IMG/VR virus record: IMGVR_UViG_3300017967_000175
Span: 1 to 26,342 of that record
Direction: 5' to 3' (one strand)
DNA from: a virus
Length of the DNA: 26,342 nt
Part shown: positions 576-26,154 of the stretch, in pieces
How positions within the stretch are numbered: position 1 is the stretch's first letter
Layout of the letters: the number at the start of each line of letters is the position of its first letter
Position numbers and translations under genes: made by a program
Notes under the pieces: generated by a model
Told to the model about the DNA's origin: nothing
Databases searched by the model: none
The model's input: only the letters and a program-made list of their open reading frames with translations

Positions 576-583
576 TATAAATA
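576..583 (+). promoter_or_regulatory. T4-type late promoter (TATAAATA) for the tail tube gene
   Basis: The box is an exact match to the T4 late consensus TATAAATA and sits directly after a terminator. In T4 the box spans about -13 to -6, which would place the transcript start near 589, three bases before the ATG at 592. The message would be practically leaderless, and no ribosome binding site is visible. Known: T4 late promoters are read by RNA polymerase with gp55, gp33 and the sliding clamp. Inferred: this phage has the same system. Confidence 0.85.
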
Positions 584-591
584 TTTACAGT

Positions 592-1170
592 ATGGCAGAT
601 ATCAAACAGACAATACAGGACTTTTACAAAGTAGCTCAATCGAGAGATTTTGCAAGAAAGTATCAGTTTAGAATAATAGATGTATCTAATAAAGGTGCAT
701 CTGTATTTGATGAATCAGAATTAGTTTACGCAACAACAGCAACCCTTCCAGGTAAGACTATTGGAGCTCAGGAAGTACCTTACAACGGCTTCACGTTTCG
801 TGTACCTAGTACTGTTTCTTATAACAATTCTGAAGCATTTAATATTCAATTTTATTGTGATGCAAATACATCAACCAGAATTAAAATGGAAAACTGGGTA
901 GAAGAAACCTTCAGTGATGCTACTACTACTGGTGATGGTGTTCTTCACAACAACAGTACAATCACATTAGCGCAGTTAGATACTCAATTTGAAGTATTAC
1001 GTACATATAAGTTATTCGGTGTCTTTCCTGTAACTGCAGGGGATCTTGAATATGATATGACAAATGCCGGGGAGATTGTTACATTCCAAGCAGGGTTTGC
1101 TTATCAGTTCTTCCGTAGAGATAACGAGATTGGACAGATTGTAAATAAGGTTGGTAAGATTTTATCCTAA
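592..1170 (+). CDS. 19: Tail tube protein (gp19-like)
   Basis: This 192-residue protein forms the inner tail tube through which DNA passes. It is close in length to T4 gp19 (163 aa) and lies directly after the sheath gene. The overall pattern resembles gp19-type tube proteins: an N-terminal helix, an early strand with FRIIDV, the LPGKTIGAQEVPYNGFTFRVP loop region (about residues 53-72), FNIQFYCDAN, then YKLFGVFPVTAGDLEYDM and a final strand region VTFQAGFAYQFF. The ATG is preceded by an exact late promoter and a terminator, so it starts its own late transcription unit. The gene is followed after 3 bp by a second tube-like gene. Confidence 0.88.
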   Translation: MADIKQTIQDFYKVAQSRDFARKYQFRIIDVSNKGASVFDESELVYATTATLPGKTIGAQEVPYNGFTFRVPSTVSYNNSEAFNIQFYCDANTSTRIKMENWVEETFSDATTTGDGVLHNNSTITLAQLDTQFEVLRTYKLFGVFPVTAGDLEYDMTNAGEIVTFQAGFAYQFFRRDNEIGQIVNKVGKILS

Positions 1171-1173
1171 TGT

Positions 1174-1881
1174 ATGCCTATAGAATTATCAGAACTTGAT
1201 TTGCAGAATGGTGGTTCTTTAACTGGTAATTTTTTCCAGTTACTTAACCAGGTAGAAACTACTCTACCCATACCTAATCTGTTTATAGTTAAGTTTGATA
1301 TACCTGCAGCTATCTCAGATGAAGTTCATGATACTTTAGGTGAATCACCATTAGATGGTAAAACCAACATAAATGCAGCAGCAAATCTATTTAAAGATGC
1401 TAAGATAAGTACTAATACTGGATTTGCTCTTTGTAACGGTATCAATGTAAATACCGAAACTATTGCAGTAGATAAGGTAGGTAATCAAGTTAACGGTTAC
1501 CTACCTATTTCTTATAATAAAAATAGATCATTTGATCCCACTGATCTAAGCACTCAATTCATGGAGAATGTTATCAGTGTATCTGATTTTATATTTAAAC
1601 CATGGGTTAAAATGGTAGCAAGGAACGGTGGTTTCTCCGATAGTAGCTTACATACTGATTTAGAAATACTTTACTTAGAAAGATCTACTAAGTCTGGTTT
1701 CTTTAACTTCTTCAGTAATACAGGATCTCCTTCAATCCGTAAAATTTATACATTCTACAATTGCCTTCCTTATGATGTAGCTGCGCAAGGTATACAAACT
1801 TATGCAGATACTCCTTCCGTAATTAATAAAGAAATAAAATGGAAATTTGATAGGTATGATATTAAATTACCTAAGAAGTGA
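1174..1881 (+). CDS. Second tail-tube-like protein, possibly tube or baseplate junction
   Basis: This protein has 235 residues. Its C-terminal third (IRKIYTFYNCLPYDVAAQGIQ..., then EIKWKFDRYDI) has the layout of the end of gp19-fold proteins, in which a strand carrying FYNCLP or FGVFP is followed by a loop and a last strand. A similar ending appears in the 4799-5842 product. In T4 the gp19 fold is shared by the tube (gp19) and the tube initiators gp48 and gp54, so this may be a tube-initiator or terminal-ring protein, or a minor tube protein. It begins 3 bp after the tube stop and overlaps the next gene by 4 bp, so it is cotranscribed. The fold call is inference from pattern and position. Confidence 0.6.
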   Translation: MPIELSELDLQNGGSLTGNFFQLLNQVETTLPIPNLFIVKFDIPAAISDEVHDTLGESPLDGKTNINAAANLFKDAKISTNTGFALCNGINVNTETIAVDKVGNQVNGYLPISYNKNRSFDPTDLSTQFMENVISVSDFIFKPWVKMVARNGGFSDSSLHTDLEILYLERSTKSGFFNFFSNTGSPSIRKIYTFYNCLPYDVAAQGIQTYADTPSVINKEIKWKFDRYDIKLPKK

Positions 1882-2597
1882 ATTTCCTTGACGTCCTAAA
1901 ATTATCTAAACAAATATCTACTAAAGATTATGATAAGGTTTTTAGCTTTATCAATAATTATTATAAACCTTATACTTGTTTACATTTAATCACTAAAATA
2001 AAGGAAGAGATATTTCAATCTAATCCTATTTATAAAGTTACAAGAAATATAAAAAATAAGGAGTATAACCTGAATTTAGAAACAGAAAACTTTCTCAATG
2101 TAACATATGAAGAAGATATCGAGATTAACGAAGGATGCTCTTATAAAATAAACTTTCCGAATATTATTTCATTGGATATTATAAATTTAAATATTATTAG
2201 TATTATTAAAAAAATAAAAATTAATAATAACTGGGTAGATATTGATTCATATAAGATAGATGATCTTAAATTAATACTGGATAATATAGATATTAATGAT
2301 TTTAGAATACTCAAAGAATACTTTGAAAAGTATATTTCTAGAATACAAAAGTTTACTTATATAAAGTTTAATAAGATTAACGAAAATCTATCATTTGAGA
2401 TTATATTGAGATTTATAATAGAGAACTTTCACTATGATACAGAAAATTTATATCAAATACTCTTATCTCTTATGAGACATTTTAATTTTACTTATTCAGA
2501 TTTTAAAGAAGTAGAATTTCATGATGGATTAAGAATGATTAAAATTGGTAATAAGATTGTAAATGAAGAAAACGAGGTAAATAATAAAAATGAGTAA
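1878..2597 (+). CDS. Unknown protein of the tail-assembly region
   Basis: This 239-residue product is rich in Ile, Asn and Lys. The start is GTG at 1878, overlapping the upstream TGA (GTGA), and no in-frame ATG lies nearby. Two parts can be seen: an N-terminal alpha/beta portion, and after about residue 130 a mostly helical portion containing LSFEIILRFIIENF and LYQILLSLMRHFNF. It ends inside the start of the next gene, overlapping by 8 bp. Its place between the tube and the tape measure is where many tailed phages encode tail-assembly chaperones or hub-assembly proteins. I do not recognise the family. The base composition is even more AT-rich than its neighbours. Confidence 0.75.
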   Translation: MNFLDVLKLSKQISTKDYDKVFSFINNYYKPYTCLHLITKIKEEIFQSNPIYKVTRNIKNKEYNLNLETENFLNVTYEEDIEINEGCSYKINFPNIISLDIINLNIISIIKKIKINNNWVDIDSYKIDDLKLILDNIDINDFRILKEYFEKYISRIQKFTYIKFNKINENLSFEIILRFIIENFHYDTENLYQILLSLMRHFNFTYSDFKEVEFHDGLRMIKIGNKIVNEENEVNNKNE

Positions 2598-3279
2598 TGT
2601 AAATCTAATACTTTCAGAATTATCCAAAAAACAAGAAGATGTTATTACTCTTCCTTTTAGTAAAAAAGAAGTTAAAATCTCTAAACCAAAATTTAAATTT
2701 CAGGAAGAAGTAGTTCAGTTATTCGAGAAATATGAATCCGAACAAGCTGCTATCCTATCTTACAGAAAATATATTAATGATTACGCTATTTCAAATATAG
2801 GTAATGAAGTTAATATATTAGATAAAAACTATTTTTTATTCAGTGTCGCGCAAAGACTATCTAATAATGAAGAATATACTGAAGTATTGAAAGGTTTAGA
2901 AGATTTAGATATTACTAGCGTATTTGAAAAGGAAGAAGATAATATGAAGTTCAAATTTGTATTAGATGCCCCTTCTTTGAGTACAGAATCATCGTTCTTG
3001 AGATTCTTTAATAATAAAAAGAACCTAAAGGTAGTTGAGTATGCTTTCTGTGATATTTTTAGATTCGTAAAGACTATTATCATTAATAATGATGAAAGCT
3101 TAACTATCGATATATCTGATACCGATATTAACTCAATATATAAGGTTTACACCTCTCTCCCTGTTTCTACATGCAGTAAGTTGATAGATCATATCAATAT
3201 CAATATCTCCGGTAAAATCAAGGATACCCAAAAAGATAATGATATTGAGCAAGATCCGACCATATTTGTGAGTATTTGA
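2590..3279 (+). CDS. Putative baseplate hub assembly protein / tail chaperone (gp26-like)
   Basis: This protein has 229 residues, near T4 gp26 (208 aa). The N-terminal segment ITLPFSKKEVKISKPKF followed by a helix of acidic and hydrophobic residues resembles T4-type gp26 hub proteins, which begin with a substrate-like LP..GK.VK..PF strand pair and a helix. The C-terminal VYTSLPVSTCSKLIDHI fits the same reading. It directly precedes the tape-measure-like gene, the usual place for a tail chaperone. The ATG at 2590 overlaps the previous stop. A box GGTAAATA at 2576-2583, 6 nt before the ATG, resembles the late promoters but is weak. The family assignment is moderate. Confidence 0.55.
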   Translation: MSNVNLILSELSKKQEDVITLPFSKKEVKISKPKFKFQEEVVQLFEKYESEQAAILSYRKYINDYAISNIGNEVNILDKNYFLFSVAQRLSNNEEYTEVLKGLEDLDITSVFEKEEDNMKFKFVLDAPSLSTESSFLRFFNNKKNLKVVEYAFCDIFRFVKTIIINNDESLTIDISDTDINSIYKVYTSLPVSTCSKLIDHININISGKIKDTQKDNDIEQDPTIFVSI

Positions 3280-3285
3280 TAAATA
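3278..3285 (+). promoter_or_regulatory. Late promoter-like box GATAAATA before the tape-measure-like gene
   Basis: The box differs from TATAAATA only at the first base and lies 6 nt before the ATG at 3292. Its right flank ATTACAATGG matches, with one difference, the flank of the divergent promoters at 10921 and 10943. A transcript would start one base before the ATG. It overlaps the stop codon of the upstream gene. Confidence 0.65.
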
Positions 3286-3291
3286 ATTACA

Positions 3292-4794
3292 ATGGCCGAC
3301 GATGCTGCAATTGTAAATGTTTTAACATTACTAAGTAAGAATTTTACTGAACTTAATCAGAACGTTAAAGATAGCTCTGATAAACAAGAAGCTCTGTCTC
3401 AACAACTCGCTGATTCTCTCAAGAGCATACTAAAAGTACAAGATGATCAGCTGAAATTAAATGAAAAAACTGCTGAAGAAGCTAAACAAAGACAAACAGG
3501 TATCGATAATGAAAAAGCTCAAGCAGAAGCTAAAAAAGAAACCGATAAAATATTAAAAGATATCCGCGATGGCCAAGAGAGCTTACCATTGGTTGGTAAG
3601 TACATTAAAGCTTTCAATGAGGGTAAAGATAAAGAAGAGAGTGTAGGTTTAGGACTTAATAATATAGCTACAAGTTTTAATAATTTCGCAGCTTCACAAA
3701 AACAAAAAGCAAATACTCAAACAGGTTTGAGGTCTAAAATAACCGGAGGAGTAGGTAAGGTCGCTGGTGGTTTAGGTTCTGTTATTGGTAAAATAGCTAA
3801 ACACTTCCCGAAATTATTAAAATTTTTAGGCCCATTAGGTATTGCAGCTCAAGAATTATTGAAAGTATTTGACCTTCTACAAGGTGCTATAGGCTTCCTT
3901 ATTTCAGGAACTATAGCTATGTTTGGTACTGCTATATTTGCATCGAAAGAGGCAATAAAGGATATTATTAAATGGTTCGAAGCACTACCACAAAAGATAT
4001 TTAAATTCTTTTCAGAAGACTTACCTCTTTTATTTGAAGCAGGAATTGTTAAGCTTAAGGAAATATTTACAAACATTTATAACTACCTACAAGAAAAAAT
4101 CTTCCAGCCACTTGCCGATTATTTGTATGAAGCTTGGGAAGGAGTTATGGCATACTGGAAAGAATTTAAAGCTGCATTTAATGAAAAAATATCTGCAATA
4201 GCTGACTCAATATATGAGACCTGGGAAGGGGTTAAAATTTGGTATAAAGAAATTAAGCAAAGCTTTAATGAATGGTTAGAAGGTTTTGCTGATGGTCTAT
4301 ATGAAGCTTGGGAAGGTATTATTGCTTATAAAGATGAGCTAATGGCTTCAATTAGAAACATGATTACTAATGTGAAAAATGCTGCAGTGGGAATGTTTAC
4401 TAATATTATTAACTTTATAAAAGAAAAAATAGATGCAGTGCTTAATATCGGTGGTAGAGCTATTGATGCTGTTAAAGGATGGTTTGGCTTTGGTGGTGGA
4501 GATGAAGAAACAATAAGAGAAGAAGCTAAAAAAGAACTAACACCAGAGGATTTCCCTAGCGGGGTAGTTAATAGAAATGCTCCACCAAATGTAATTATTG
4601 AGTTCAATGACGAAGCAATGAAGTTATACAATAATACTATTGAAAAGAATAGACAACAAACTGAAAAAATGACTGAATCAGTTGATCTGTTAATAGAAAC
4701 AATCAGTAGTAAAGAACTTGGTACTACAGTTATTAATAATACAGCTCCTGCTCCTACTCAAAGTTACAGTAGCGGTGGTAGATTAAGAAAGTAA
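3292..4794 (+). CDS. Tape-measure-like tail protein with 29-residue repeats
   Basis: This protein has 500 residues. Residues 10-95 are strongly helical, charged and Gln/Lys-rich (coiled coil). Residues 150-166 are glycine-rich. Residues 175-217 form a long hydrophobic stretch able to cross or insert into a membrane. Residues 279-360 contain three repeats beginning YE(A/T)WEG. The end is polar with a Gly/Ser tail. This mixture of coiled coil, hydrophobic segment and helical repeats is typical of tape measure proteins, which set tail length and are injected. T4 gp29 has 590 aa, so a somewhat shorter tail would be expected. It has its own late box and lies between the gp26-like gene and the tube-initiator-like gene. 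Family identity with gp29 is not demonstrated. Confidence 0.65.
   Translation: MADDAAIVNVLTLLSKNFTELNQNVKDSSDKQEALSQQLADSLKSILKVQDDQLKLNEKTAEEAKQRQTGIDNEKAQAEAKKETDKILKDIRDGQESLPLVGKYIKAFNEGKDKEESVGLGLNNIATSFNNFAASQKQKANTQTGLRSKITGGVGKVAGGLGSVIGKIAKHFPKLLKFLGPLGIAAQELLKVFDLLQGAIGFLISGTIAMFGTAIFASKEAIKDIIKWFEALPQKIFKFFSEDLPLLFEAGIVKLKEIFTNIYNYLQEKIFQPLADYLYEAWEGVMAYWKEFKAAFNEKISAIADSIYETWEGVKIWYKEIKQSFNEWLEGFADGLYEAWEGIIAYKDELMASIRNMITNVKNAAVGMFTNIINFIKEKIDAVLNIGGRAIDAVKGWFGFGGGDEETIREEAKKELTPEDFPSGVVNRNAPPNVIIEFNDEAMKLYNNTIEKNRQQTEKMTESVDLLIETISSKELGTTVINNTAPAPTQSYSSGGRLRK
4126..4350 (+). repeat. Coding tandem repeat, period 87 bp (29 residues)
   Basis: The motif YEAWEG, YETWEG, YEAWEG starts at residues 279, 308 and 337 (bases 4126, 4213 and 4300), exactly 29 residues apart. 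Between the motifs the pattern of aromatic, acidic and Lys positions and a final A-D pair is also kept (...IAD, ...FAD). The third copy is clear only in its first half. Confidence 0.85.
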
Positions 4795-4798
4795 TTAT

Positions 4799-5842: not shown

Positions 5843-5843
5843 T

Positions 5844-6215
5844 ATGATAGAAGATTTACAAAAGTATCATAACGAAATTGACGAGCTAGTTCCATTAGAA
5901 TATACTAGATATGAAAATATATTTCAAATAGCAAAAAATAATAATTATTTTTTCTATAATATTCTTAAAAAGGTTAACTTCCCTACAAGCATTGATAATA
6001 GACTCTTTCATGAAGTAATTGTATCAACCAGAATACCCTATACTGTTGTTAGTCATCAGTATTATGGAACACAAGACTTATGGTGGTTAATTTGTTTAGT
6101 TAATAATATAACTAATCCAGTTAATAATATTACACCTGGTACTAAACTTAAAATATTAACTAATGATGCTGTTAACAGAGTATTAGCTAGTATTGAAGAA
6201 GATCTCAAAAAATAA
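5844..6215 (+). CDS. 53: Baseplate wedge protein gp53-like
   Basis: This protein has 123 residues from the ATG at 5844. The motif HQYYGTQDLWWLICLVNNITNP (about residues 70-91) is the hallmark of the gp53/LysM-associated baseplate wedge family, in which a Tyr-Gly-(aromatic/acidic) element and a Trp-Trp/Leu-Ile-Leu helix are followed by NN..NP and PG..L.IL. Here the ending TPGTKLKIL matches that pattern. In T4 gp53 joins wedges round the hub. It follows the tube-initiator-like gene and overlaps the next start by one base (TAATG). The 127-residue version starting at 5832 remains possible. Confidence 0.82.
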   Translation: MIEDLQKYHNEIDELVPLEYTRYENIFQIAKNNNYFFYNILKKVNFPTSIDNRLFHEVIVSTRIPYTVVSHQYYGTQDLWWLICLVNNITNPVNNITPGTKLKILTNDAVNRVLASIEEDLKK

Positions 6216-7672: not shown

Positions 7673-8499
7673 GCTTAGCACCAGCAAAAACATTAAAAGA
7701 AGAATTAGTAAGTACAAAGCTTGAAAGTACAGCCGATGTACAGTTGAGTAATACTACAACTAATAATCCTTTCAATGTATATAAAGAACACTTTCAATTG
7801 TATATACAGTATGAAAATACTAAAACAAAAAATGACCCTATAACAAGTGAAGCTGATTTCTGGACAAATAATATTGATACATTTGAAAGTTTTGAGCCTG
7901 AATTTATTTTATTTTGGATGCGTAAACTTGCTAATGCTAATCCAAAAGTATTAGAACTTGTTAAAGGTAAAATTAATATTGAAGAGACAGCTCTACAAAC
8001 TTTAAGTGATAGTATTGCTAATATTTTCGATCAAGACTTGGTAGTTGATAGTAGATATACCCCTATGTTTGATGTAGATCTAGAAAGTAATAATCCTCTG
8101 CCCTACAATCATATATTAGATAGTAAATTAAATTTTAATTATAAGAAAAATGTATCTCAAATGAGTACTAAGGTTAATAGTCTATTCAATCAAAATATAT
8201 CTAAGATAGTACAACCATCCTCTCCTGGGGTCGCGCATGGTGGTAATTTAGTAACTGATTTTACTCATATAAATAGAATAGCAGAAAACAAACCTGACTT
8301 TTATGAAGTTATAGCTGATAAGTTAGATGGTTCTTTTGAGACGTTTGTATTTTTATCTAACTATAAGCTTAATAACTTACAAGAAGTAATAAAAGTAGAA
8401 TTCGATAAAGATGTAGAGGGTACAACTATTAAGGTTGATCTCAAAGGAGATAGAATACAAACTCCGAGTAAAAAGAAAACTAAAGACTTACTCGGTTGA
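7669..8499 (+). CDS. Unknown baseplate-region protein
   Basis: This protein has 276 residues and no recognised domain. It has a polar Ser/Thr/Asn N-terminus, a helical part around EADFWTNNIDTFESF and FILFWMRKLANANPKVLELVKG, a central DSRYTPMFDVDLESNN, then SSPGVAHGGNLVTDFTHINRI and a Lys-rich tail. It starts by ATGA overlap with the hub gene, so it belongs to the baseplate operon. It sits where many T4-like phages place gp5 (hub lysozyme and spike), but I see no lysozyme catalytic pattern and no spike repeats. It could be a hub adaptor or assembly factor. The last 12 bases overlap the convergent terminase-like gene. Confidence 0.8.
   Translation: MSLAPAKTLKEELVSTKLESTADVQLSNTTTNNPFNVYKEHFQLYIQYENTKTKNDPITSEADFWTNNIDTFESFEPEFILFWMRKLANANPKVLELVKGKINIEETALQTLSDSIANIFDQDLVVDSRYTPMFDVDLESNNPLPYNHILDSKLNFNYKKNVSQMSTKVNSLFNQNISKIVQPSSPGVAHGGNLVTDFTHINRIAENKPDFYEVIADKLDGSFETFVFLSNYKLNNLQEVIKVEFDKDVEGTTIKVDLKGDRIQTPSKKKTKDLLG
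8464..8495. other. Inverted repeat across two convergent stop codons, possible weak bidirectional terminator
   Basis: An 8-bp perfect inverted repeat (8464-8471 CCGAGTAA with 8488-8495 TTACTCGG) has a 16-nt loop. The right arm contains the stop of the minus-strand gene and lies 4 bp before the stop of the plus-strand gene. There is no long T tract on either side, so termination is uncertain. Confidence 0.35.
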
Positions 8500-8943
8500 T
8501 TCTTCCGCATCAACATTAATAACATCTTTACCATCAATTAATTTTTTTAATATTTCTTCTCTAGATAGTTTAAGCCTATGGACTTGTTCACTATCCTGTA
8601 ACATTTGTTTAGAATGAATATCTAATTGTTTTACTTGCAATTGAGTTTTAGATTTCTTATCCTGTGTAACAAGTTTATTAAGAGTCTCTATGGCACCAGT
8701 AGATGCTTTGATTAGCTCGGCAAGAGAAGAAACATTGTCAGCATCTGGAACATGAAATACAACTTCTTTCATATTGTTTATCATTTCCATACTGTCATGA
8801 ATTAATTTTGCGGATTGATCAATTATGAATTGCTCAACCTTTTCTTTCTCTAAAGGTTCTATATCCTTCTTAGTAGCTAACTGTTTAGCTTCTTTTGGAA
8901 TATTTTTAAGCTGTGCTATAATATCGTTAGCCTCTTCTTCCAT
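8488..8943 (-). CDS. 16: Putative terminase small subunit (gp16-like)
   Basis: This 151-residue protein is almost wholly helical, with a short N-terminal acidic part and a C-terminal Lys/Glu-rich tail. T4 gp16 has 164 residues with a central coiled-coil pair. The central segment here, LEKEKVEQFIIDQSAKLIHDS..., then VSSLAELIKASTGAIETLNKLV, lines up by eye with the two central helices of T4 gp16, including the acidic-to-helix entry and the helix break near a D/N-A-D stretch. gp16 recognises viral DNA and starts packaging with the large subunit gp17. The gene is antisense to the tail genes, has an exact late promoter, and converges on the baseplate operon with a 12-bp overlap. A structural coiled-coil protein is the alternative. 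Confidence 0.58.
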   Translation of the reverse strand: MEEEANDIIAQLKNIPKEAKQLATKKDIEPLEKEKVEQFIIDQSAKLIHDSMEMINNMKEVVFHVPDADNVSSLAELIKASTGAIETLNKLVTQDKKSKTQLQVKQLDIHSKQMLQDSEQVHRLKLSREEILKKLIDGKDVINVDAEESTE

Positions 8944-8951: not shown

Positions 8952-8959
8952 TATTTATA
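8952..8959 (-). promoter_or_regulatory. T4-type late promoter (TATAAATA) for the terminase-like gene
   Basis: The box is an exact consensus on the minus strand, 8 nt before the ATG at 8943, the same spacing as at the tail tube gene. The predicted transcript begins 3 bases before the start codon. Confidence 0.82.
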
Positions 8960-9501: not shown

Positions 9502-10425
9502 ATGGAAATCACCGACATCTGGGTAGAGAAGTATCGACCTGCAACATTAGATGATACAGTATTATCTAGTGATGTACGAGAATACTTTAATAATGTAAAA
9601 CAAAAAGGTAACCTACCTAATCTATTGTTAGTAGGAAACCCAGGGGTCGGTAAGACTACCTTAGCTAAAATCATTATCAACGATATTCTGAATGCTCAAT
9701 ATTTGTATATTAATGCGTCAGATGAAAACGGTATTGATACAATTAGAACTAAGGTACTCAATTTCGCTCAAACGCAAAGTATTTTCGGTACTACTAAAGT
9801 AATTATTCTCGATGAGTGTGATGGATTAAGTCTAGACGCTCAGAAAGCTTTGCGTAATAGTATTGAAGAGTATCATGATATTGCGAGATTTGTTCTCACT
9901 GCGAATTATCAGCATAAGATAATACCAGCTCTTCAATCCCGCTGTCATACTTTTCTTTTAACTCCACCGAAAGAAGGATATGTTAAAAGAGTACTACATG
10001 TTATTAATAAAGAGAATGTTCAAATTGATAGAGAGCATTTATCAGAAATAATTAATAAGTCATATCCTGATCTTCGTAAGTGTATCAATAGTATTCAAAA
10101 ATACACTATTTCAGGTAAAAAGGCTAATGTAGTAAATGGAGCAGAGAGTGTTATAAGTACATGCCTATCTTTATTGAAAAAGAAAGATATTTACAAAATG
10201 CGTAAGCATATTATTGAGAATGAAAGCGCATTCGGTAATGATTATGATACTCTCTTCAAAGTTTTATTCGATAAGTTATATAATAACGAGTTAAAGGTAT
10301 CCGACGAAAAAAACAGAGACTGTATGATTACAGTCTCTGAGTACTTTTATAGAAATAATATTGTAATTGATAAAGAGATTAACTTCTTTACTTGCTTGAT
10401 CGAACTATCAAGACATGTACTTTGA
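9502..10425 (+). CDS. 44: Sliding clamp loader ATPase subunit (gp44-like)
   Basis: This AAA+ protein of 307 residues (T4 gp44 has 319) loads the sliding clamp onto primer-template DNA. In T4-like phages the clamp also activates late transcription. Seen: N-terminal WVEKYRP box (7-13), typical of RFC and gp44 subunits; Walker A GNPGVGKT (45-52); Walker B VIILDECD (100-107); sensor 1 TAN (133-135); SRC arginine-finger motif (146-148); and a C-terminal region with PDLRKCINSIQKY. The partner gp62 is usually next to it but is not in this window; the next gene is on the other strand and overlaps by 18 bp. An inverted repeat inside its coding sequence works as a terminator for that opposing gene. Confidence 0.93.
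   Translation: MEITDIWVEKYRPATLDDTVLSSDVREYFNNVKQKGNLPNLLLVGNPGVGKTTLAKIIINDILNAQYLYINASDENGIDTIRTKVLNFAQTQSIFGTTKVIILDECDGLSLDAQKALRNSIEEYHDIARFVLTANYQHKIIPALQSRCHTFLLTPPKEGYVKRVLHVINKENVQIDREHLSEIINKSYPDLRKCINSIQKYTISGKKANVVNGAESVISTCLSLLKKKDIYKMRKHIIENESAFGNDYDTLFKVLFDKLYNNELKVSDEKNRDCMITVSEYFYRNNIVIDKEINFFTCLIELSRHVL
10307..10339 (-). terminator. Rho-independent terminator for the minus-strand gene, embedded in the clamp-loader gene
   Basis: On the minus strand an 11-bp perfect stem (10329-10339 with 10314-10324, CAGAGACTGTA pairing with TACAGTCTCTG) closes a 4-nt loop and is followed by seven T (10313-10307). It lies about 70 nt past the stop of the 10408-10914 gene and entirely within the coding sequence of the clamp loader, where it encodes part of the C-terminal domain. 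Confidence 0.85.
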
Positions 10426-10914
10426 AGTATAATTCTCGCTCGCGAGTTTATAGTCTCCTCCGTCAATCTTAGAGCTATTACCAACAGCTAGTTCTGGATC
10501 TTTTACAGGTTCAGGCTTAGCTGTAATATTTTCTTGCTTTTCATTCGTTTTGTCGATTCTTGTAGCTCTATGCTCATCACCAGTCATATCGAATTCAACT
10601 AACTCGATTGGTAATGATAATGCATTATTGTAAAATCCTGGAGCTTCTTCAACAGTAATATCAGCGATATACTCTTTAGAGCCAAGTCTGTTTGTTTCGT
10701 ATTGAGTAGACTTAATAGCACTAAAAAGAATGTATTTACCAGCTTCTTGTAACTGAATGATGTTATCAACGTAAGCTTTTCTGGCTTCGTCTAAGTTTTT
10801 ATACCAGTCAGAGCTTTTAACGTTAGAACGTATTTTGACGTAATCTCCTGGGATTGCGCTAGTTTTCTCATAACGCTGGTATACCTCTTCGTATAATTCA
10901 CTAAATTTTCCCAT
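10408..10914 (-). CDS. Unknown late protein
   Basis: This protein has 168 residues with no recognised domain. It opens with a helical, Tyr-rich part (FSELYEEVYQRYEKTSAIPGDYVKI), then has DEARKAYVDNIIQLQEAGKYILFSAIKS and a strand-rich middle (EYIADITVEEAPGF). The last 50 residues are polar and probably disordered (Lys/Glu/Pro). It stands alone on the minus strand with its own late-type promoter and its own terminator, so it is a single-gene late unit. It converges on the clamp-loader gene with an 18-bp overlap and diverges from the gp25 gene. A virion or assembly role is inferred only from late expression and neighbours. Confidence 0.82.
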   Translation of the reverse strand: MGKFSELYEEVYQRYEKTSAIPGDYVKIRSNVKSSDWYKNLDEARKAYVDNIIQLQEAGKYILFSAIKSTQYETNRLGSKEYIADITVEEAPGFYNNALSLPIELVEFDMTGDEHRATRIDKTNEKQENITAKPEPVKDPELAVGNSSKIDGGDYKLASENYTSKYMS

Positions 10915-10920
10915 TTTAAT

Positions 10921-10928
10921 TATTTATG
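10921..10928 (-). promoter_or_regulatory. Late promoter box CATAAATA for the 10408-10914 gene
   Basis: The box differs from TATAAATA only at the first base and lies 6 nt before the ATG at 10914 on the minus strand. The predicted leader is one base. Confidence 0.72.
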
Positions 10929-10942
10929 CTTTTTGTTTTATT

Positions 10943-10950
10943 ATTAAATA
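10943..10950 (+). promoter_or_regulatory. Late promoter-like box ATTAAATA for the gp25-gp6 operon
   Basis: The box matches TATAAATA at six of eight positions and lies 6 nt before the ATG at 10957. It is the mirror image of the promoter at 10921-10928 in its last six bases and spacer. It would drive the large baseplate and fibre operon. Confidence 0.58.
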
Positions 10951-10956
10951 ATTAAA

Positions 10957-11439
10957 ATGGCTATTAACTTAGATTTCTTAGATGAAAATAAGATAAAGGA
11001 TAAAACAACATCCTTTGCTTATAGTGATTTATCTTTGGATTTCGAGCTGAGCTCTGATATCAACAATACACCTGTTAACCGTGCTAACAACAAACAGGAT
11101 GTTAAGCTATTGTATGATGAACAAGCAATATATCAGAGTGTTAAAAATATATTCAATACTTCGCCTGGTCAAAAGATTCTTAATCCAACTTTTGGATTAG
11201 ATCTTAAACAATTCCTATTTTATCCTGTTAGTGAAAATACGGCTTTATTAATTGGTGAAGCTATACAAGAAAAATTACCTGTATACGAGCCTAGAATCAT
11301 AGTAGATGAAGTTAGTATAGTTGGTAGACCTAATAGAAACGAATACTTTATAGAACTAAGCATTATCGTTCCAACATTAAATAATAAAAAACAGTTAGTG
11401 AAAGGTGTGCTAGATACAGAAGGATTTAGATACAATTAA
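10957..11439 (+). CDS. 25: Baseplate wedge protein gp25-like
   Basis: This protein has 160 residues. The C-terminal 100 residues are a clear gp25/GpW-type domain: IYQSVKNIFNTSPGQKILNPTFGLDL (about 58-83), then LFYPVSENT..., and the conserved EPR triplet (111-113, in VYEPRIIV), ending with a strand pair. The domain resembles lysozyme in fold class but is structural. In T4 and other contractile systems it seeds sheath assembly on the baseplate. The first 50 residues are an extra polar extension compared with T4 gp25 (132 aa). The gp6 gene follows 2 bp after the stop, the usual pair of the wedge core. Confidence 0.93.
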   Translation: MAINLDFLDENKIKDKTTSFAYSDLSLDFELSSDINNTPVNRANNKQDVKLLYDEQAIYQSVKNIFNTSPGQKILNPTFGLDLKQFLFYPVSENTALLIGEAIQEKLPVYEPRIIVDEVSIVGRPNRNEYFIELSIIVPTLNNKKQLVKGVLDTEGFRYN

Positions 11440-20074: not shown

Positions 20075-20082
20075 AATAAATA
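20075..20082 (+). promoter_or_regulatory. Late promoter-like box AATAAATA for the fibre gene
   Basis: The box differs from TATAAATA only at the first base and lies 5 nt before the ATG at 20088, with flank ATTATATGG like those at 3292 and 10957. An AAGGA at 20071-20075 could instead act as a distant ribosome binding site (12 nt). Confidence 0.6.
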
Positions 20083-20087
20083 ATTAT

Positions 20088-20912
20088 ATGGCTTTAGAAG
20101 ATGAAATTATAAACATAGAAGACCTAGAAATTGCCAGTGAAATAAAAATCGGTGACTTCGTACTTTTGGAAACAACTGATGGTACCAAACTTATCGATTT
20201 TAAAGATTTTATTATAGGTGCTGATAATGTGACCTTCTTTGATAAAATATCAAGTACGTACTTACAATCATCTGATATATCTGCTATTAGCGCAAAGACA
20301 TTAAATAATGAGTCTCTTTTATCTTCTATAAGTGGAGTTAATAACGTTACTGATAGATTAGAAACAAGAATTAATTCAGTTGAGAGTTCATTAATTACCT
20401 TTATTGATAGTCTTAGTGTCACATCTTTAACTGATGCAGATATAACTAGTAATACAAATGCTAAAGTTGGTTTCACTGTATCAAATGCTTCTTCTTTAAG
20501 TCTTGAAAGGTCATATGGTAAAGTTAGATTCAGTACAATAGACTTCCAAGGAACTGGTTTAACAGAAGGAGCTGACGCGGATATATATCTAGGAGACAGT
20601 GGCCAAGGTTTCTTTTATAAAGCTAAAGGTTCATACGGTTTACTTCTAAATGGCATGATCAATGCTTCTATTCTGCGATATACATCAGGTAAAAAATTAT
20701 TATATTTAAAGAAAAACGATACCGTTGTAGCATCTTATGCTCTGAGTTTTACATACGATGGATCAATAAGTAGAACAGTACATGCGGATCAAGGAAGCTT
20801 TAACTTTTCTATCTATATTAATTTAGTAGCTGGCGATAAAATTACTCTCACGTTTGGAGAGAAAAACACTACAATTAAAGAAGCAACATTTTCTGGAGTC
20901 AGAGTTGGATAA
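20088..20912 (+). CDS. Fibre protein with C1q-like C-terminal domain
   Basis: This protein has 274 residues. The N-terminus (ININ-like IEDLEIASEIKIGDFVLLETTDGTKLIDFKDFI, 10-43) is the kind of module that phage fibres use to attach to the particle. A coiled coil with heptads follows at about 83-110 (VNNVTDRLETRINSVESSL). Residues 145-274 resemble the C1q/TNF-type jelly roll: KKLLYLKKNDTVVASY, then IYINLVAGDKITLTF and a final ATFSGVRV strand. Proteins of this design are trimers whose distal jelly roll binds receptors. The gene has its own late box and overlaps the next start by one base (TAATG). Assignment as a short fibre or spike is likely but not proven. Confidence 0.75.
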   Translation: MALEDEIINIEDLEIASEIKIGDFVLLETTDGTKLIDFKDFIIGADNVTFFDKISSTYLQSSDISAISAKTLNNESLLSSISGVNNVTDRLETRINSVESSLITFIDSLSVTSLTDADITSNTNAKVGFTVSNASSLSLERSYGKVRFSTIDFQGTGLTEGADADIYLGDSGQGFFYKAKGSYGLLLNGMINASILRYTSGKKLLYLKKNDTVVASYALSFTYDGSISRTVHADQGSFNFSIYINLVAGDKITLTFGEKNTTIKEATFSGVRVG

Positions 20913-23900
20913 TGAAGGTAGTAACTTTCAATACAGAGTCAGTTAAGCCAGTAAAGCTTAAACACTCAGCAGATAAGACCCTCGTATACAAAGGAGAGCC
21001 TGAGAACTTCAATTTTGGGCTTCATCTTCAAACATATAATGTATTTGAAGATATTAAAGATAGAAGTACTAATTACAATACAGCTTACTTTCTATCTGAT
21101 CTTTATAGTCTGAGCTCTATTATTGAACTAGATACACCGTATACTTTAACTAGTGATTCTAAGTTTACTACATATCTAAAAAATGGAGACAATTATGCTA
21201 AAGCATCGTCTAGTAGTAGTGAGTTAACTTATGATTCTAATTTTAATACTTTAAGCTCTCAATACTTTTTTACCCTCAATATAAGCACAAATAGGTATCT
21301 ATACATTACAAAAGAAATAAATGATACTACTTATTATGCATACTGTTCAAGTGAGTTAATTTATTTATCAGCTGATGTACCTAGTGTAAGCTCACACTTA
21401 TTTGAGTTTGTAGTTGAAGATAATAAACTCAAATTATTTCCATATAAAGATATAGCGAATCCATCAAATAAATACCAAGTTATATTTTCTAATGTTTTAG
21501 AATTAACAGGTACTACAGCAGGTAATGTTGTTAGTTCAGTTATAGATATTAATAGAAATGTTTTAACCAAACTCAAAGGAGCTCTTAATAATACTTTTAG
21601 TTATTATATCTCTAGTTTTAATAGAGATAATGTTGGTTTAAATTTAAACACTACGACAAAGACAGTAAGTAATAACTACCTTGGCTTTACAAATAACTAC
21701 ACTTTAAATTATTCAAGTAATGATTGGTGTGTTGATTTCGATACTTTACCGTTAAAGAATCAAGCTACATTAGAAGAGTATTATTCCCCTAATAATCACT
21801 ATAACTCACAGCCTAGTAACCTCAATAGAGAGTATGAAAAAATATTCTCAGGTAACAATCAAAATGAAGGTTATGATAAGTTATATCTCTCTTATAACAT
21901 AGGTACAAAAGATATTCATTTTCCACCATCTAAGCTGACTTACTTTACAACACCATCAAGTATATCTCCTTATACTAAGTTAAATATAAATGATTCTAAA
22001 ATAGATAATATAGGAGCTATACCTGGTAATAATCCTCTAGTTGCTGATAAAGTATTCAAGAGAAGATTTGATTTTAAAAATAATAACTTTACTGATGACG
22101 TTAATGCTACCTATTTGTGTAGTTGGTTATCTGGTAACACAGACGGAGATAGACTATGGGTAGATAGGTACTATAATCCAGATTCAATAAACTTCTCGGC
22201 CGCCATGTCTGGAACAGCGTTTTATAATACTGTTACATCAGCTAGCGCTCAAACAACTCATGTGTTTGATATTAGTTCTAGATTAACGTTTGAGAAGAAT
22301 AACGATTACGCATACTATCATATAGGTGAGGTAGATTACCTCAATCATATAAACTCACTCAAGAAATTTGAACTATCTCAAGATATAGAGATTCTATCCA
22401 ATAAAGGCGCAGTAACAACATTTGATTATGCTAAAGAAGATATTGAACTAGATTTAAATGGGGATAGATTCGGTAGGTTTAAAACAAATCATAAGGGGGA
22501 TATTTCTTTATCTTTTTGGTTGAGCGCTAATGATTATTCTCTTCCTCTTGGTTATAAGATATTAGGTAATTACTTTGAAGAAGGTTTTGGTATATTCAAT
22601 ACTGATTTTGTCACGCCGAATATTTTTATTCCAGTTGGTAATAAACTATTATTACTCAACAATGAATTAGAGATATATGATGAGATTGAAGTTCTAGAAG
22701 GTAACACTCCAGTCAATATTAAAGGCATCGGCCGTAAAGATAACTTTAGTGAGTTTTATATCTTAGGAGAAAACAACGTAATTTATATTTACAATAGTAA
22801 TCCAAACTTAGTAAGTAAAGTAACTAACTTATCTAGTTATAGTAGTATTGTTATAGATGATATTGATGTAACTAAAGATAGATTTTATGTAGGTTTAAAT
22901 CCATCAGGATCTAAGGGATACTTCTATTATGATTCTTCTGATAATAGTACTCATATAAGAAGATCTGTAAGCGCAGACTCTTTTGGAGATAAGAATAAGA
23001 TATTTGTTAATCCAGCAAACAATGCTATTAGTTTCTACAAAGCTGACTCTGAAATAGAAACAGGTAATGAAATAGCTATTGATGGAGATAAGAACACATA
23101 TACTATTAGACAGAAGTCTCCTACTCAAAGAAACATACCTTATAACCTAGTATATAAGAACAGCTTTATTGATAATACAACAAACACTATACAAGTAACT
23201 GGTGGTAATGTTGAGTCTGTTTTAACTAACGTTATTGTAGATGACGAAGATTACATTATTACGCTACATGATAAGAATAGAATATCCAAACTTAAAACAA
23301 CTAGAAAATTAGTAACCTTCAAAGACTTAACTTTCTTAGATAATAATACTACAAAATATATTGATGTTATTCTAGACTTCGAAGGTAAGAACTATGTTAA
23401 GTATTATCTAATAGTAGAAAAGTTTTCCAATAAAACTCTTTTACATAAAATTGATAAGAACTTTAATCTAGTTAAAACTAAGAGTCTTGGATCTAGAATA
23501 GTTAATAACTTGAACTTAACTAAGTCAATCACCAGTTACTACTTCTTAAAGAAATACAATGCATGTAAGAATAAGCTCAAAGTAGTTCTAAAAGCTAAAC
23601 CTAAGTTTACTAAAACTGGTGGCTTCAAAAAGACAGAAGCTAATATCGTATATGATATCTCTCAGCTTAACTCTGGATATAATCACTTTGCGGTCAATGT
23701 AAGTTTAAAACTAGGTTATATGGATCTATATGTCAATGGTTACAAATATCAGCGACGTACGTTCAGTCCTGGTACATTCTTACTTGATAATCCATTAGGG
23801 TCTGGTATATTCCTTGGAGCCTTAAGCACTCCTTATTATCTAACCTTTTCAAGTAGATTACAACAACCAGGTAAGTATTTCTTGAGAGACTTAAAGCTCA

Positions 23901-24208
23901 AAGGGTTTAAAATGTACAGTAAGGTGTTAGACTTCTATGAAATTAGATCTCACTATAATTATCACAATTTCAATAGAGATACAGTATGGTCATTACCTAT
24001 TGGTCAGAGAACATATATAGACACAATAGATAGAGTATATAAGTTTAACTTACCTGAGAAGAACACTAATACGTTTGATATTGATATCAAGAACTTAGGT
24101 ATCCCAGATACTACTTTACAACAGAAGATTAAGGATGAGATTAAGAAAGAAATTCCTAAGCTAGTTCCTTACTATGATACTCTGAAAGATGTTAATATTA
24201 ATAGTTAA
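20912..24208 (+). CDS. Giant virion adhesin-like protein with LamG-like sandwich and internal propeller-like insert
   Basis: This protein has 1098 residues, the largest gene here. Residues 1-510 are Asn/Ser/Tyr-rich and beta-structured. From residue 518 comes DRFGRFKTNHKGDISLSFWLSANDY..., the usual opening of a LamG or concanavalin-type sandwich, followed by YKILGNYFEEGFGIF. Its expected second half (YNHFAVNV at 923-930, MDLYVNGYKYQRRTF at 937-951) appears more than 350 residues later. The intervening segment has propeller-like repeats (for example NKLLLLNNELEIYDEI and NNVIYIYNSNPNLV). The final 130 residues are Lys-rich. The protein is presumably exposed on the baseplate or fibre and binds host surface sugars or proteins. 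It converges on the minus-strand accessory genes with a 4-bp overlap. Confidence 0.78.
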   Translation: MKVVTFNTESVKPVKLKHSADKTLVYKGEPENFNFGLHLQTYNVFEDIKDRSTNYNTAYFLSDLYSLSSIIELDTPYTLTSDSKFTTYLKNGDNYAKASSSSSELTYDSNFNTLSSQYFFTLNISTNRYLYITKEINDTTYYAYCSSELIYLSADVPSVSSHLFEFVVEDNKLKLFPYKDIANPSNKYQVIFSNVLELTGTTAGNVVSSVIDINRNVLTKLKGALNNTFSYYISSFNRDNVGLNLNTTTKTVSNNYLGFTNNYTLNYSSNDWCVDFDTLPLKNQATLEEYYSPNNHYNSQPSNLNREYEKIFSGNNQNEGYDKLYLSYNIGTKDIHFPPSKLTYFTTPSSISPYTKLNINDSKIDNIGAIPGNNPLVADKVFKRRFDFKNNNFTDDVNATYLCSWLSGNTDGDRLWVDRYYNPDSINFSAAMSGTAFYNTVTSASAQTTHVFDISSRLTFEKNNDYAYYHIGEVDYLNHINSLKKFELSQDIEILSNKGAVTTFDYAKEDIELDLNGDRFGRFKTNHKGDISLSFWLSANDYSLPLGYKILGNYFEEGFGIFNTDFVTPNIFIPVGNKLLLLNNELEIYDEIEVLEGNTPVNIKGIGRKDNFSEFYILGENNVIYIYNSNPNLVSKVTNLSSYSSIVIDDIDVTKDRFYVGLNPSGSKGYFYYDSSDNSTHIRRSVSADSFGDKNKIFVNPANNAISFYKADSEIETGNEIAIDGDKNTYTIRQKSPTQRNIPYNLVYKNSFIDNTTNTIQVTGGNVESVLTNVIVDDEDYIITLHDKNRISKLKTTRKLVTFKDLTFLDNNTTKYIDVILDFEGKNYVKYYLIVEKFSNKTLLHKIDKNFNLVKTKSLGSRIVNNLNLTKSITSYYFLKKYNACKNKLKVVLKAKPKFTKTGGFKKTEANIVYDISQLNSGYNHFAVNVSLKLGYMDLYVNGYKYQRRTFSPGTFLLDNPLGSGIFLGALSTPYYLTFSSRLQQPGKYFLRDLKLKGFKMYSKVLDFYEIRSHYNYHNFNRDTVWSLPIGQRTYIDTIDRVYKFNLPEKNTNTFDIDIKNLGIPDTTLQQKIKDEIKKEIPKLVPYYDTLKDVNINS

Positions 24209-24423
24209 CGACCAGATAAGAAGTGCGCTTTAATGTTATTTAAATCATTTAGAAACTCTCTATAACAAGATACCGTAACAGCGTCGGCATTTTCCATAAT
24301 CAATTGCTGTCCACCAAATTGATACTTCTCTACTAGAGTCTGATACTTACTAATAGCACTATTAATTGCTTGAAGAGTTAAAGTTGGTTTAATACGCTCA
24401 AATTCACTTATATTCATATTCAT
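24205..24423 (-). CDS. Small unknown protein
   Basis: This is a 72-residue helical protein (SEFERIKPTLTLQAINSAISKYQTLVEKYQ, then AVTVSCYREFLNDLNNIKAHFL), with no recognised family. The start at 24423 is chosen because AAGG lies 6 nt upstream, just after the stop of the zinc-ribbon gene. A second in-frame ATG at 24417 lies 5 nt after a GATAAATA box and would be the leaderless start of a late transcript. A TTG at 24441 would overlap the upstream gene and is less likely. The gene overlaps the end of the giant adhesin gene by 4 bp. Confidence 0.7.
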   Translation of the reverse strand: MNMNISEFERIKPTLTLQAINSAISKYQTLVEKYQFGGQQLIMENADAVTVSCYREFLNDLNNIKAHFLSGR

Positions 24424-24430
24424 ATTTATC
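24423..24430 (-). promoter_or_regulatory. Late promoter-like box GATAAATA inside the start region of the small gene
   Basis: The box is one base off consensus on the minus strand. It overlaps the first ATG (24423) and lies 5 nt before the second in-frame ATG (24417), the spacing seen at other late genes. AAGG just upstream may serve the first ATG when the gene is read from further upstream. Confidence 0.45.
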
Positions 24431-24431
24431 C

Positions 24432-24677
24432 TTATGCGCAAATGTGTTTACTAAAATTCTTAACTGCACTACGAGCTCCGTTAGGCTGATAATACTTCTT
24501 CTGCTCAGACCAACACTCAGATGACATAATCTGAATAACAGGAGCAGTCTTATGCGACCAATTCATAGTACCTTTATACCTAGATACATCAGGCCGCCTA
24601 AAAGCACATGCCTTACAAGACGTCAATCCGAATTCTACACGAGCCGTTTCAATATCTTTACCACAAGAGCATTTCAT
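24432..24677 (-). CDS. Small zinc-ribbon protein, DksA/TraR-like N-terminus
   Basis: This protein has 81 residues. It opens with C-x-C-G-K-x-I-x-x-x-R (Cys3, Cys5) and has C-x-x-C at residues 21 and 24, the spacing of the C-terminal zinc finger of DksA/TraR (C..CG..I...R ... C..C). DksA-type proteins act in the secondary channel of RNA polymerase, but here the coiled coil is absent, so this may only be a zinc-binding module. Residues 30-81 contain a Trp- and His-rich part (NWSHKTAPVIQI) without a known match. A TATAAACA box at 24679-24686 lies 2 nt before the ATG, closer than the late boxes elsewhere. The small unknown gene follows 8 bp after its stop. Confidence 0.72.
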   Translation of the reverse strand: MKCSCGKDIETARVEFGLTSCKACAFRRPDVSRYKGTMNWSHKTAPVIQIMSSECWSEQKKYYQPNGARSAVKNFSKHICA

Positions 24678-24713
24678 ATGTTTATATTATAGATATCTGA
24701 GAGATAGTTGCAA

Positions 24714-24740
24714 TAAAAAAAGCGGCTCTTTCGAACCGCT
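24714..24740 (-). terminator. Rho-independent terminator after the outer-membrane protein gene
   Basis: On the minus strand an 8-bp stem including one G-U pair (24740-24733 with 24728-24721) closes a GAAA tetraloop and is followed by seven T (24720-24714). It lies 25 bp after the stop of the beta-barrel gene and isolates it from the zinc-ribbon gene. Confidence 0.9.
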
Positions 24741-24764
24741 CTGCAATGTTTAATGTTAGTTTAA

Positions 24765-25499
24765 TTAGAAGCTAATAGCTAAACCACCCGACCAAACTAA
24801 ATCTCCATCAAGCTCTGCTGCCGCAAAATTGAAATTCTGCACATCAAAACTATTATCAATGTACTTGGCTGCAACAAATGGCTGGATCTGCCACTTAGTC
24901 AATGCAAGCCTAGCGCCAATATCAACGGACTTATAGTCTTCAAACATATGATATGAGATATTAGGAGTGAACTTAAACCACTCGTCTCCCTTAAGCTCCA
25001 AAGAATACTCCTTGGTTAAGCCGAAAGTCAAACCATTTTGCTCAATCCTCCAGTCATGAGTATAACTAACATATGGCATAACCCATGGAGTAACTAATCC
25101 TACAGTACCAGCAAGCTCAGAATTCTGAGGAACATTAAGATCAGTTCTACGGGTAGTAACTACCCCGTCTAACCGAAGTGCATACTTGTCAGACCCATTC
25201 AAGGATAAAGACTTTCCAGCTCCTACACTCCAAAAGGAATCAGTATTGTCAGTAATAATAGTCCCACTACCATACAAGTCTACAGGAATAAAGTTATTCT
25301 CTTCTGGAGAATGTAAATTCAATCCAATATACCGAGCGTATCCACCAGTGTAAGCAACACCCTTACTAAGCAATTGACCTGAATACCCAGCCTCAATAGA
25401 GAAACTAGGCTTAATAATAGCTTTTTCGACGTCATTAGTCTGTGCGAAGATATTTAAACTAATAAGCATCGCACTAATCGTTAACAATGTTTTATTCAT
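24765..25499 (-). CDS. Secreted outer-membrane beta-barrel protein, late expressed
   Basis: This protein has 244 residues. Residues 1-20 are a signal peptide: positive start MNK, hydrophobic core LLTISAMLISLNIF, then AQ with likely cleavage near residue 19-20. The mature part alternates polar and hydrophobic residues in many strands (FSIEAGYSGQLL, YARYIGLNL, SFWSVGAGKSL, VMPYVSYTHDW, SVDIGARLAL) and ends in GGLAISF. A C-terminal Phe on a last amphipathic strand is the usual signal for insertion by the BAM complex. It would sit in the host outer membrane late in infection. It has an exact late promoter and its own terminator, so it is a single-gene unit. A host-derived origin is likely. Its role could be receptor masking or uptake. 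Confidence 0.85.
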   Translation of the reverse strand: MNKTLLTISAMLISLNIFAQTNDVEKAIIKPSFSIEAGYSGQLLSKGVAYTGGYARYIGLNLHSPEENNFIPVDLYGSGTIITDNTDSFWSVGAGKSLSLNGSDKYALRLDGVVTTRRTDLNVPQNSELAGTVGLVTPWVMPYVSYTHDWRIEQNGLTFGLTKEYSLELKGDEWFKFTPNISYHMFEDYKSVDIGARLALTKWQIQPFVAAKYIDNSFDVQNFNFAAAELDGDLVWSGGLAISF

Positions 25500-25505
25500 A
25501 CATGA

Positions 25506-25513
25506 TATTTATA
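25506..25513 (-). promoter_or_regulatory. T4-type late promoter (TATAAATA) for the outer-membrane protein gene
   Basis: The box is an exact consensus on the minus strand, 6 nt before the ATG at 25499. It overlaps the stop codon of the small ORF upstream (25509-25511). Confidence 0.83.
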
Positions 25514-25670
25514 TACCATTAACCAAAAATAGCAACAAAAAAAAGTCGGGCGACTTACCCGACTTGAAACTCTTACGATTATATGATCCTTTACCTTTCT
25601 TTGGCTTATGTCGCCTTGTTCCTATATTCCACGGCACTAAATACCGTACCTTGATCACTTTGCCTTTCAT
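25509..25670 (-). CDS. Small basic peptide (53 residues)
   Basis: The ORF begins MKGKVIKVRYLVPWNIG and is strongly basic in its middle (TRRHKPKKGKGSYNRKSF). GGAAGAA stands 8 nt before the ATG and resembles the sequence before the PQ-loop gene start, which supports translation. The last 15 residues are read through the stem and T tract of a terminator (25537-25565), giving a hydrophobic end FFLLLFL. Either the terminator sits inside the gene or the true product is shorter. No known family. A competing 39-residue GTG-started frame covers part of the same region. Confidence 0.4.
   Translation of the reverse strand: MKGKVIKVRYLVPWNIGTRRHKPKKGKGSYNRKSFKSGKSPDFFLLLFLVNGI
25537..25565 (-). terminator. 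Rho-independent terminator downstream of the PQ-loop gene
   Basis: On the minus strand an 8-bp perfect stem (25565-25558 AAGTCGGG with 25550-25543 CCCGACTT) has a 7-nt loop and is followed by a run of T ending at 25537. It separates the upstream small genes from the late promoter of the outer-membrane protein gene. Confidence 0.88.
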
Positions 25671-25744
25671 ATCTTTTCTTCCTATCTACCGGCACGCACC
25701 TGATTTTTACCCGGCGGCCCGACACCTAATACTTAATCTAGCCA

Positions 25745-26038
25745 TCATACCTCAATCTCCTTCCTAATATAGTACTTCCAGAAAAACATAGTCAGGATCG
25801 TCATACAGATACCAGAACTATAGTTAATCACTACCCAGAATCTAGCTATCTCATTACTCGTTATATAGACTAAACCTGAACAATAACCTATGAGGTTGAG
25901 AATCAGCATTCCTAATGATACGTCTTTTGAGCTCTTATTCCTAATCATCCTGATAATCTGCGGGAAATACGCTATAGCGAAACATACAGATAACAAGATT
26001 CCGGATGTCTGCTTTATGATCTCTGGTATACTCTCCAT
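25745..26038 (-). CDS. PQ-loop membrane protein, SemiSWEET-like
   Basis: This protein has 97 residues with three hydrophobic segments (about 11-32, 41-60 and 66-88). The first ends in a PQ motif (FPQIIRMIRNKSSKDVS, PQ at 26-27), with S-x-x-D-V-S and a Leu/Asn-rich second helix (LGMLILNLIGYCSGLVY), the pattern of PQ-loop/MtN3 (SWEET) half-transporters. Bacterial SemiSWEETs of 85-100 residues form dimers and move sugars. It lies in the inner membrane and is positioned 1 bp after a small basic peptide gene, with GGAAGAAG upstream as a possible ribosome binding site. Substrate cannot be read from the sequence, and a role unrelated to sugar is possible. Confidence 0.8.
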   Translation of the reverse strand: MESIPEIIKQTSGILLSVCFAIAYFPQIIRMIRNKSSKDVSLGMLILNLIGYCSGLVYITSNEIARFWVVINYSSGICMTILTMFFWKYYIRKEIEV

Positions 26039-26039
26039 A

Positions 26040-26141
26040 TCACTTCTTCCCTTTACCCACCCTCTTACGTGTGATTGTAACTGTCTTACGTGTCTTAATT
26101 CCGTTCTTAGTTGTCTCTCTTACTGTTTGTCTCTTACTCAT
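26040..26141 (-). CDS. Small very basic peptide (33 residues)
   Basis: Sequence MSKRQTVRETTKNGIKTRK then TVTITRKRVGKGKK: 14 of 33 residues are Lys or Arg, and there is a Thr-rich strand-like core. The stop is 1 bp before the PQ-loop start, so the two are cotranscribed. A GATAAATT box lies 5 nt before the ATG. It may bind nucleic acid, which is inference from charge only. Confidence 0.55.
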   Translation of the reverse strand: MSKRQTVRETTKNGIKTRKTVTITRKRVGKGKK

Positions 26142-26146
26142 AATTT

Positions 26147-26154
26147 AATTTATC
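26147..26154 (-). promoter_or_regulatory. Late promoter-like box GATAAATT
   Basis: The box is two bases off consensus, 5 nt before the ATG at 26141 on the minus strand. It overlaps the stop of the upstream gene (26154-26156). It would drive the basic peptide and PQ-loop genes. Confidence 0.45.

Follow-up and report, generated by a model that had tools for sequence, protein, structure and literature searches.

Late messages of phage T4 carry leaders with ribosome-binding sites, and at a T4-type late promoter transcription begins one helical turn downstream of the box. The present analysis concerns boxes of this type in a 26,342-base virus fragment carrying T4-like tail and baseplate genes (IMG/VR record IMGVR_UViG_3300017967_000175, positions 1 to 26,342), the whole of which is here called the window. 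The window and its relatives, together the clade, have in common with the T4 late promoters (gp55/gp33/gp45) the octamer, an A/T-rich segment downstream of it, a gp55 homologue and the use at virion genes. In T4 the ATG mostly follows the box by 17-35 nucleotides (nt) and a Shine-Dalgarno sequence is present in the leader (11 of 12 counted), whereas in the clade the distance is 5-9 nt and Shine-Dalgarno sequences are lacking. We consider it likely that these boxes are gp55-dependent T4-type late promoters, with transcripts starting 0-3 nt before the AUG in the window and 0-6 nt before it across the relatives.

The cyanophages Syn9, P-SSM2 and P-HM1 share the box, gp55 and related virion genes with the clade, but their boxes lie mostly 15-39 nt upstream. 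When the T4 late region, these three cyanophages, the related marine single-cell virus AG-345-L05 and the Campylobacter phage CP21 were pooled and scanned as the clade was, 3 boxes stood at 5-9 nt and 49 at 15-39 nt, as expected if T4 late promoters normally leave a leader, which the earlier sequence-only reading of this DNA had assumed. Rhodothermus phage RM378 and a stretch of KVP40 from outside its late region were uninformative in this comparison. In HTVC008M, a cultured Pelagibacter phage, 11 boxes lie 5-9 nt before the deposited starts, 8 of them at exactly 5 nt and mostly without a Shine-Dalgarno sequence, as in the clade; it differs from the clade in having further late boxes 18-36 nt upstream with GGAG in the leader. 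Mosig EXVC030M similarly has 3 boxes at exactly 5 nt, and 11 at 15-39 nt. Unlike the clade, both phages also contain late genes whose start follows the box by 15-39 nt and whose leader carries a Shine-Dalgarno sequence, and they use such sequences at other genes as well. Leaderless placement is the rule in the clade of the window, a minority or mixed arrangement in the two SAR11 phages and rare in the other sampled phages. The late promoter motif of phiKZ also has an ATG inside it, although the sigma factor gp55 is absent there; phiKZ was rejected as a precedent, since transcription there begins on the G of TATG, a motif recognised by a phage multisubunit RNA polymerase (PMC4666361).

A search of IMG/VR with the tail tube protein returned 139 related stretches, on contigs of up to 200 kilobases, from a single protein query, which marks the group as a common one among marine phages; 80 of the 139 stretches were kept. 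The lineage is T4-like, mostly marine and, as far as the searched collections go, uncultured, the closest cultured phages having about 30% identity in the tube and about 35% or less in the capsid protein. Genomes of the clade are approximately 70% A/T.

Late boxes in the window

The boxes, the genes behind them and the adjoining hairpins are as follows, the gap being the number of nucleotides between box and start codon.

526..549, + strand: terminator-like hairpin of the Rho-independent type, a 10-pair stem then a T run, closing off the preceding unit; the late box follows 26 nt later
576..583, + strand: predicted late promoter box TATAAATA, exact, gap 8, predicted leader AGU
592..1170, + strand: tail tube protein gp19, predicted leaderless (phrog_45, E 3e-28; N-terminus conserved)
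3278..3285, + strand: predicted late promoter box GATAAATA, one mismatch, gap 6, predicted leader A
3292..4794, + strand: tape-measure-like tail protein, predicted leaderless (phrog_1272 and other tape measure families)
8952..8959, - strand: predicted late promoter box TATAAATA, exact, gap 8, predicted leader ACU
8488..8943, - strand: protein without family match, predicted leaderless, divergent from the dUTPase gene
10921..10928, - strand: predicted late promoter box CATAAATA, one mismatch, gap 6, predicted leader A
10408..10914, - strand: protein without family match, predicted leaderless, divergent from gp25
10943..10950, + strand: predicted late promoter box ATTAAATA, two mismatches, gap 6, predicted leader A
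10957..11439, + strand: baseplate wedge gp25, predicted leaderless (phrog_261, E 1e-23)
20075..20082, + strand: predicted late promoter box AATAAATA, one mismatch, gap 5, predicted leader 0 nt
20088..20912, + strand: late-cluster protein without family match, predicted leaderless
24423..24430, - strand: ambiguous box GATAAATA, one mismatch, gap 5
24205..24417, - strand: small protein, possible leaderless start (phrog_12416, function unknown, E 1e-3)
25565-25543: terminator-like hairpin upstream of box 25506-25513
25506..25513, - strand: predicted late promoter box TATAAATA, exact, gap 6, predicted leader 1 nt
24765..25499, - strand: secreted or outer-membrane-like protein, predicted leaderless; signal peptide ending FAQ, without family match
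26147..26154, - strand: weak, doubtful box GATAAATT, two mismatches, gap 5, before start 26141

All nine boxes that the sequence-only reading had placed 5-8 nt before start codons are present at these positions, three of them exact (576-583, 8952-8959 and 25506-25513), and six of the nine starts are ATGG as it had stated. Seven of the sites are solid, 24417 is ambiguous and 26141, which opens an open reading frame (ORF) of only 33 codons, is weak. The 24417 gene has a competing in-frame ATG at 24423, preceded by AAGGA. On the minus strand between 24417 and 24441 the in-frame starts are TTG at 24441, ATG at 24423 and ATG at 24417, with the AAGGA overlapping the late box; a late transcript from the 24423-24430 box would permit start 24417 only. 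The 42-base divergent intergenic region 10915-10956 holds two outward-facing late boxes on opposite strands, both with predicted leaders of 1 nt.

In the published numbering the first T of the T4 late octamer is at -13 (PMC2988020), which places its last base at -6 and +1 six bases further on. A gap of 5 nt thus puts the predicted +1 exactly on the A of the AUG. The spacing argument of the sequence-only reading agrees with this numbering, which gives predicted leaders of 0-3 nt when applied to the nine sites.

Spacing, conservation and the predicted transcription start

Near-matches to the octamer were not above chance in the window (161 found against 158 expected), so the plain count is uninformative. 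Their position is not random, however: 7 of the 14 ATAAATA occurrences stand 5-8 nt before the ATG of an ORF and none at other distances up to 59 nt. The spacing set consisted of the window and five related contigs, with 367 ATAAATA boxes in total. From box to ATG, 10 of these lay at 0-4 nt, 100 at 5-9 nt, 14 at 10-14 nt and 23 at 15-39 nt. When only non-operonic starts were considered, 44 of the 367 ATAAATA stood at 5-9 nt compared with 102 of 14,016 among all the remaining permutations of its letters (Fisher P 3e-35, somewhat too small since the window and its relative G002 are homologous). The lower edge was sharp, with no box at 4 nt and 21 at 5 nt, as would follow from the fact that a start codon cannot precede its own transcript. 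The distances are concentrated at 5-9 nt, and the result that the sequence-only reading had named as refuting, a distribution no different from background, did not occur. A motif-free search for 6-mers upstream of clade starts returned TAAATA as the most over-represented word, seen 158 times where 5 were expected (approximately 30-fold over internal ATGs), whereas the same search in HTVC008M, Mosig and T4 yielded Shine-Dalgarno words first.

Orthologues were aligned by protein, and their distinct upstream sequences were compared for the box. It was found before the tube gene (592) in 30 of 30 upstreams at 5-11 nt, before gene 10914 in 6/6, before gene 3292 in 2/2, before gene 20088 in 3/4, before gene 24417 in 2/3 and before gene 8943 in 7 of 17, all of these at 5 nt. 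The two-mismatch box of gp25 (10957) was nevertheless kept in 6/6 at 5-7 nt. For operon-internal genes the corresponding numbers were 0/6, 0/16, 0/7, 0/27, 1/22, 0/16, 0/18 and 0/16. In G002 the box is present at the tube, gp25, tape measure, neck and fibre genes, and the replication and nucleotide genes read out (gp43, gp41, gp32, uvsX, gp46/47, nrdA/B) are without it. The box marks the starts of transcription units and not genes generally. Gene 1174 has no box in the window, and 22 of 25 distinct relatives carry one at 5-7 nt; this is an apparent recent loss that made the gene operon-internal in the window. Since the gap at one gene ranges from 5 to 11 nt among relatives, predicted leaders would range from 0 to 6 nt.

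Many relatives (the tube upstream of L014-L054, L058-L062 and others) have CTAAATA, with C at -12, and the ATG 11 nt downstream. A box variant with a/gC, which the CTAAATA of these relatives resembles, was reported for the Aeromonas phage Aeh1 (PMC2988020).

At clade sites with a gap of 7-11 nt, the sixth base after the box was a purine in 61 of 73 (84%), compared with 350 of 678 control boxes without a following ATG (52%; P 5e-8). Aligned in the register of the ATG, the best position of the same sites reached only 0.68 purine, and the enrichment of A in the spacer also follows the box rather than the ATG. The spacer signal therefore belongs to the promoter.

Late sigma factor, translation and the probable host

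The window is a fragment without a gp55 gene. Of 12 related contigs, 10 encode the late sigma factor gp55 (E 1e-26 to 4e-30), and its central sigma region (region 2) is conserved. From these observations we infer the polymerase, the actual +1 and the mode of translation in the following form. The late RNA polymerase would be the host core enzyme with phage gp55, probably activated by the sliding clamp; it would recognise NNTAAATA at -13 to -6 and start at a purine, the sixth base after the box. The start codon would be shifted against the promoter, +1 being the A of the AUG or 1-3 nt earlier in the window and up to 6 nt earlier in relatives, and thereby the promoter would set the 5′ end of the RNA and the start of translation together. 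Ribosomes may then begin, with no Shine-Dalgarno sequence to guide them, on an AUG at or near the 5′ terminus, the host being one which uses such sequences little or not at all.

G makes up about 9-14% of the bases at -12 to -8 of clade starts; at the Shine-Dalgarno positions it accounts for 41-67% in T4 and for 35-39% in HTVC008M. In the five relatives Shine-Dalgarno words were at control level in box genes (0-8%) and in other genes alike. The window has an AGGA-like match in 2 of 8 box genes, located upstream of the predicted +1, and the claim that most of these genes lack a Shine-Dalgarno sequence thus holds.

The host is probably a member of the Bacteroidota, which fits because of the missing Shine-Dalgarno signal, the signal peptides ending in FAQ and the closeness of the phage bS21. 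According to one study, Bacteroidota are without Shine-Dalgarno sequences (PMC6847099). Leaderless messages of Bacteroidota cells (Flavobacterium, Bacteroides) are likewise translated without a Shine-Dalgarno sequence, but they are few: 5.5% of mapped mRNAs in Flavobacterium psychrophilum are leaderless (PMC9723704), and about 3.7% of 5′ untranslated regions in Bacteroides thetaiotaomicron are shorter than 10 nt (PMC7366714). In the clade leaderlessness is the predicted usual arrangement behind the late box. Ribosomal protein bS21 (PF01165, E 1e-17) is encoded by two relatives, at G001:80975-81127 (L100 4969-5163) and G005:60388-60537 (L224), and also by HTVC008M. It is possibly linked to Shine-Dalgarno-independent translation of phage messages. 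By best E value the phage bS21 stands nearer to the phylum of G013, a Mediterranea genome (3e-13), than to the proteobacterial sample (1e-9), which is no more than a mild hint to the host. A comparison of the outer-membrane-like protein 25499 with 395 genomes of the same phylum gave no match. A ClpC-like gene of G002 gave matches of 29-44% spread over many phyla and was rejected as a basis for a host call.

Alternative explanations and wider meaning

The late-promoter reading is supported by every computational test available, and several points weigh against it. A number of boxes in the clade, the sheath and prohead protease boxes of G002 among them, stand 16-26 nt ahead of the ATG, and therefore not every late gene would be leaderless. 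About half of the box-bearing genes in relatives are within 60 nt of an upstream gene on the same strand, from which read-through could also give leadered copies. The contigs of the clade share ancestry and are not all independent, which makes the P values optimistic, although the size of the effect of box position is not in doubt. The placement of +1 would follow from T4 numbering and purine conservation, and the host from the indirect signs given above. The gp45 sliding clamp was matched by family profile in one relative only, G005 (E 1e-5), and a 257-amino acid candidate ORF in G002 had no family match. No gp33 was detected in the relatives; this is a small protein with strong divergence in the N-terminal third (PMC2988020), so a missing match is weak evidence and the system is named T4-type rather than identical to that of T4. 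Matches to gp33 of about 13 bits inside an ORF of approximately 620 amino acids were discarded as chance. With gp33 not found and gp45 matched once, the coactivation step is put forward as probable on the T4 model.

The motif might instead be a translation-initiation signal of the A-rich, Kozak-like Bacteroidota type on mRNAs with ordinary leaders, since it is A/T-rich and near the start codon, and Bacteroidota prefer A at -3, -6 and -11 to -15 (PMC7366714). Such a signal would be expected at genes generally and in register with the ATG, and neither the orthologue nor the register comparison found this: unit starts have the motif and most operon-internal genes are without it, and the base pattern keeps register with the box and not with the ATG. 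As the octamer is moreover the known T4 late box, standing 15-39 nt upstream in leadered relatives, and the phages encode gp55, we regard this explanation as very unlikely. Another possibility is that the promoters are real but most of the protein comes from longer read-through transcripts, the leaderless species being minor. The boxes of 3292 and 20088 stand directly behind a same-strand gene, as do those of about half the box genes in relatives, whereas 592, 8943, 10914, 10957 and 25499 have no direct same-strand gene upstream or lie behind a terminator-like hairpin; the fact that the exact spacing is conserved would also be unexplained if leaderless messages were unimportant, and this explanation appears unlikely.

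Compact A/T-rich intergenic DNA, in which TAA stops are followed by TAAATAAT-like filler, could produce similar boxes by coincidence, given genomes of about 70% A/T, an octamer total at chance and a box (3278-3285) that overlaps the stop codon of the preceding gene. Permuted motifs show little effect (102/14,016 vs 44/367), the sites at divergent starts are not preceded by a stop codon, TAAATA exceeds its frequency at internal ATGs about 30-fold, and orthologous starts retain the box, which other places lack; coincidence is counted as refuted.

Both the promoter type and leaderless messages are known; what seems a new variant, judged by the open-access literature, is that a T4-like lineage combines the two systematically. 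No report of leaderless T4-type late messages was found in an open-access library, which lacks most subscription papers. A more far-reaching and rather doubtful proposal is that throughout a T4-like lineage late promoter and start codon have become a single initiation module, by which the late messages as a group would avoid any initiation that depends on a leader. If true, virion genes would be given a 5′-terminal AUG route rarely used by host mRNAs, perhaps aided by phage bS21. If transcript mapping confirms the late-promoter reading itself, the clade would offer many natural leaderless genes, all driven by a single type of promoter, and with them a way to ask how abundant proteins arise without a leader in Shine-Dalgarno-poor hosts. 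The reading also supplies a simple rule for annotating start sites in such phages. HTVC008M with its cultured host is a system open to direct test.

Other genes of the window recognised by family match are the following.

5847: gp53-like wedge protein
9016: dUTPase
9502: clamp loader gp44
11442: gp6

The starts of the dUTPase (9016) and of a small Cys-rich protein (24677, - strand) are preceded by TATTATACACAT and TATAATATAAACAT, respectively, which near the ATG are possibly another promoter class. In G002, genes resembling QueC, QueD and QueE were recognised by eye at 49955-50644, 64456-64896 and 65038-65835, which suggests that deazaguanine DNA modification may occur in the lineage.

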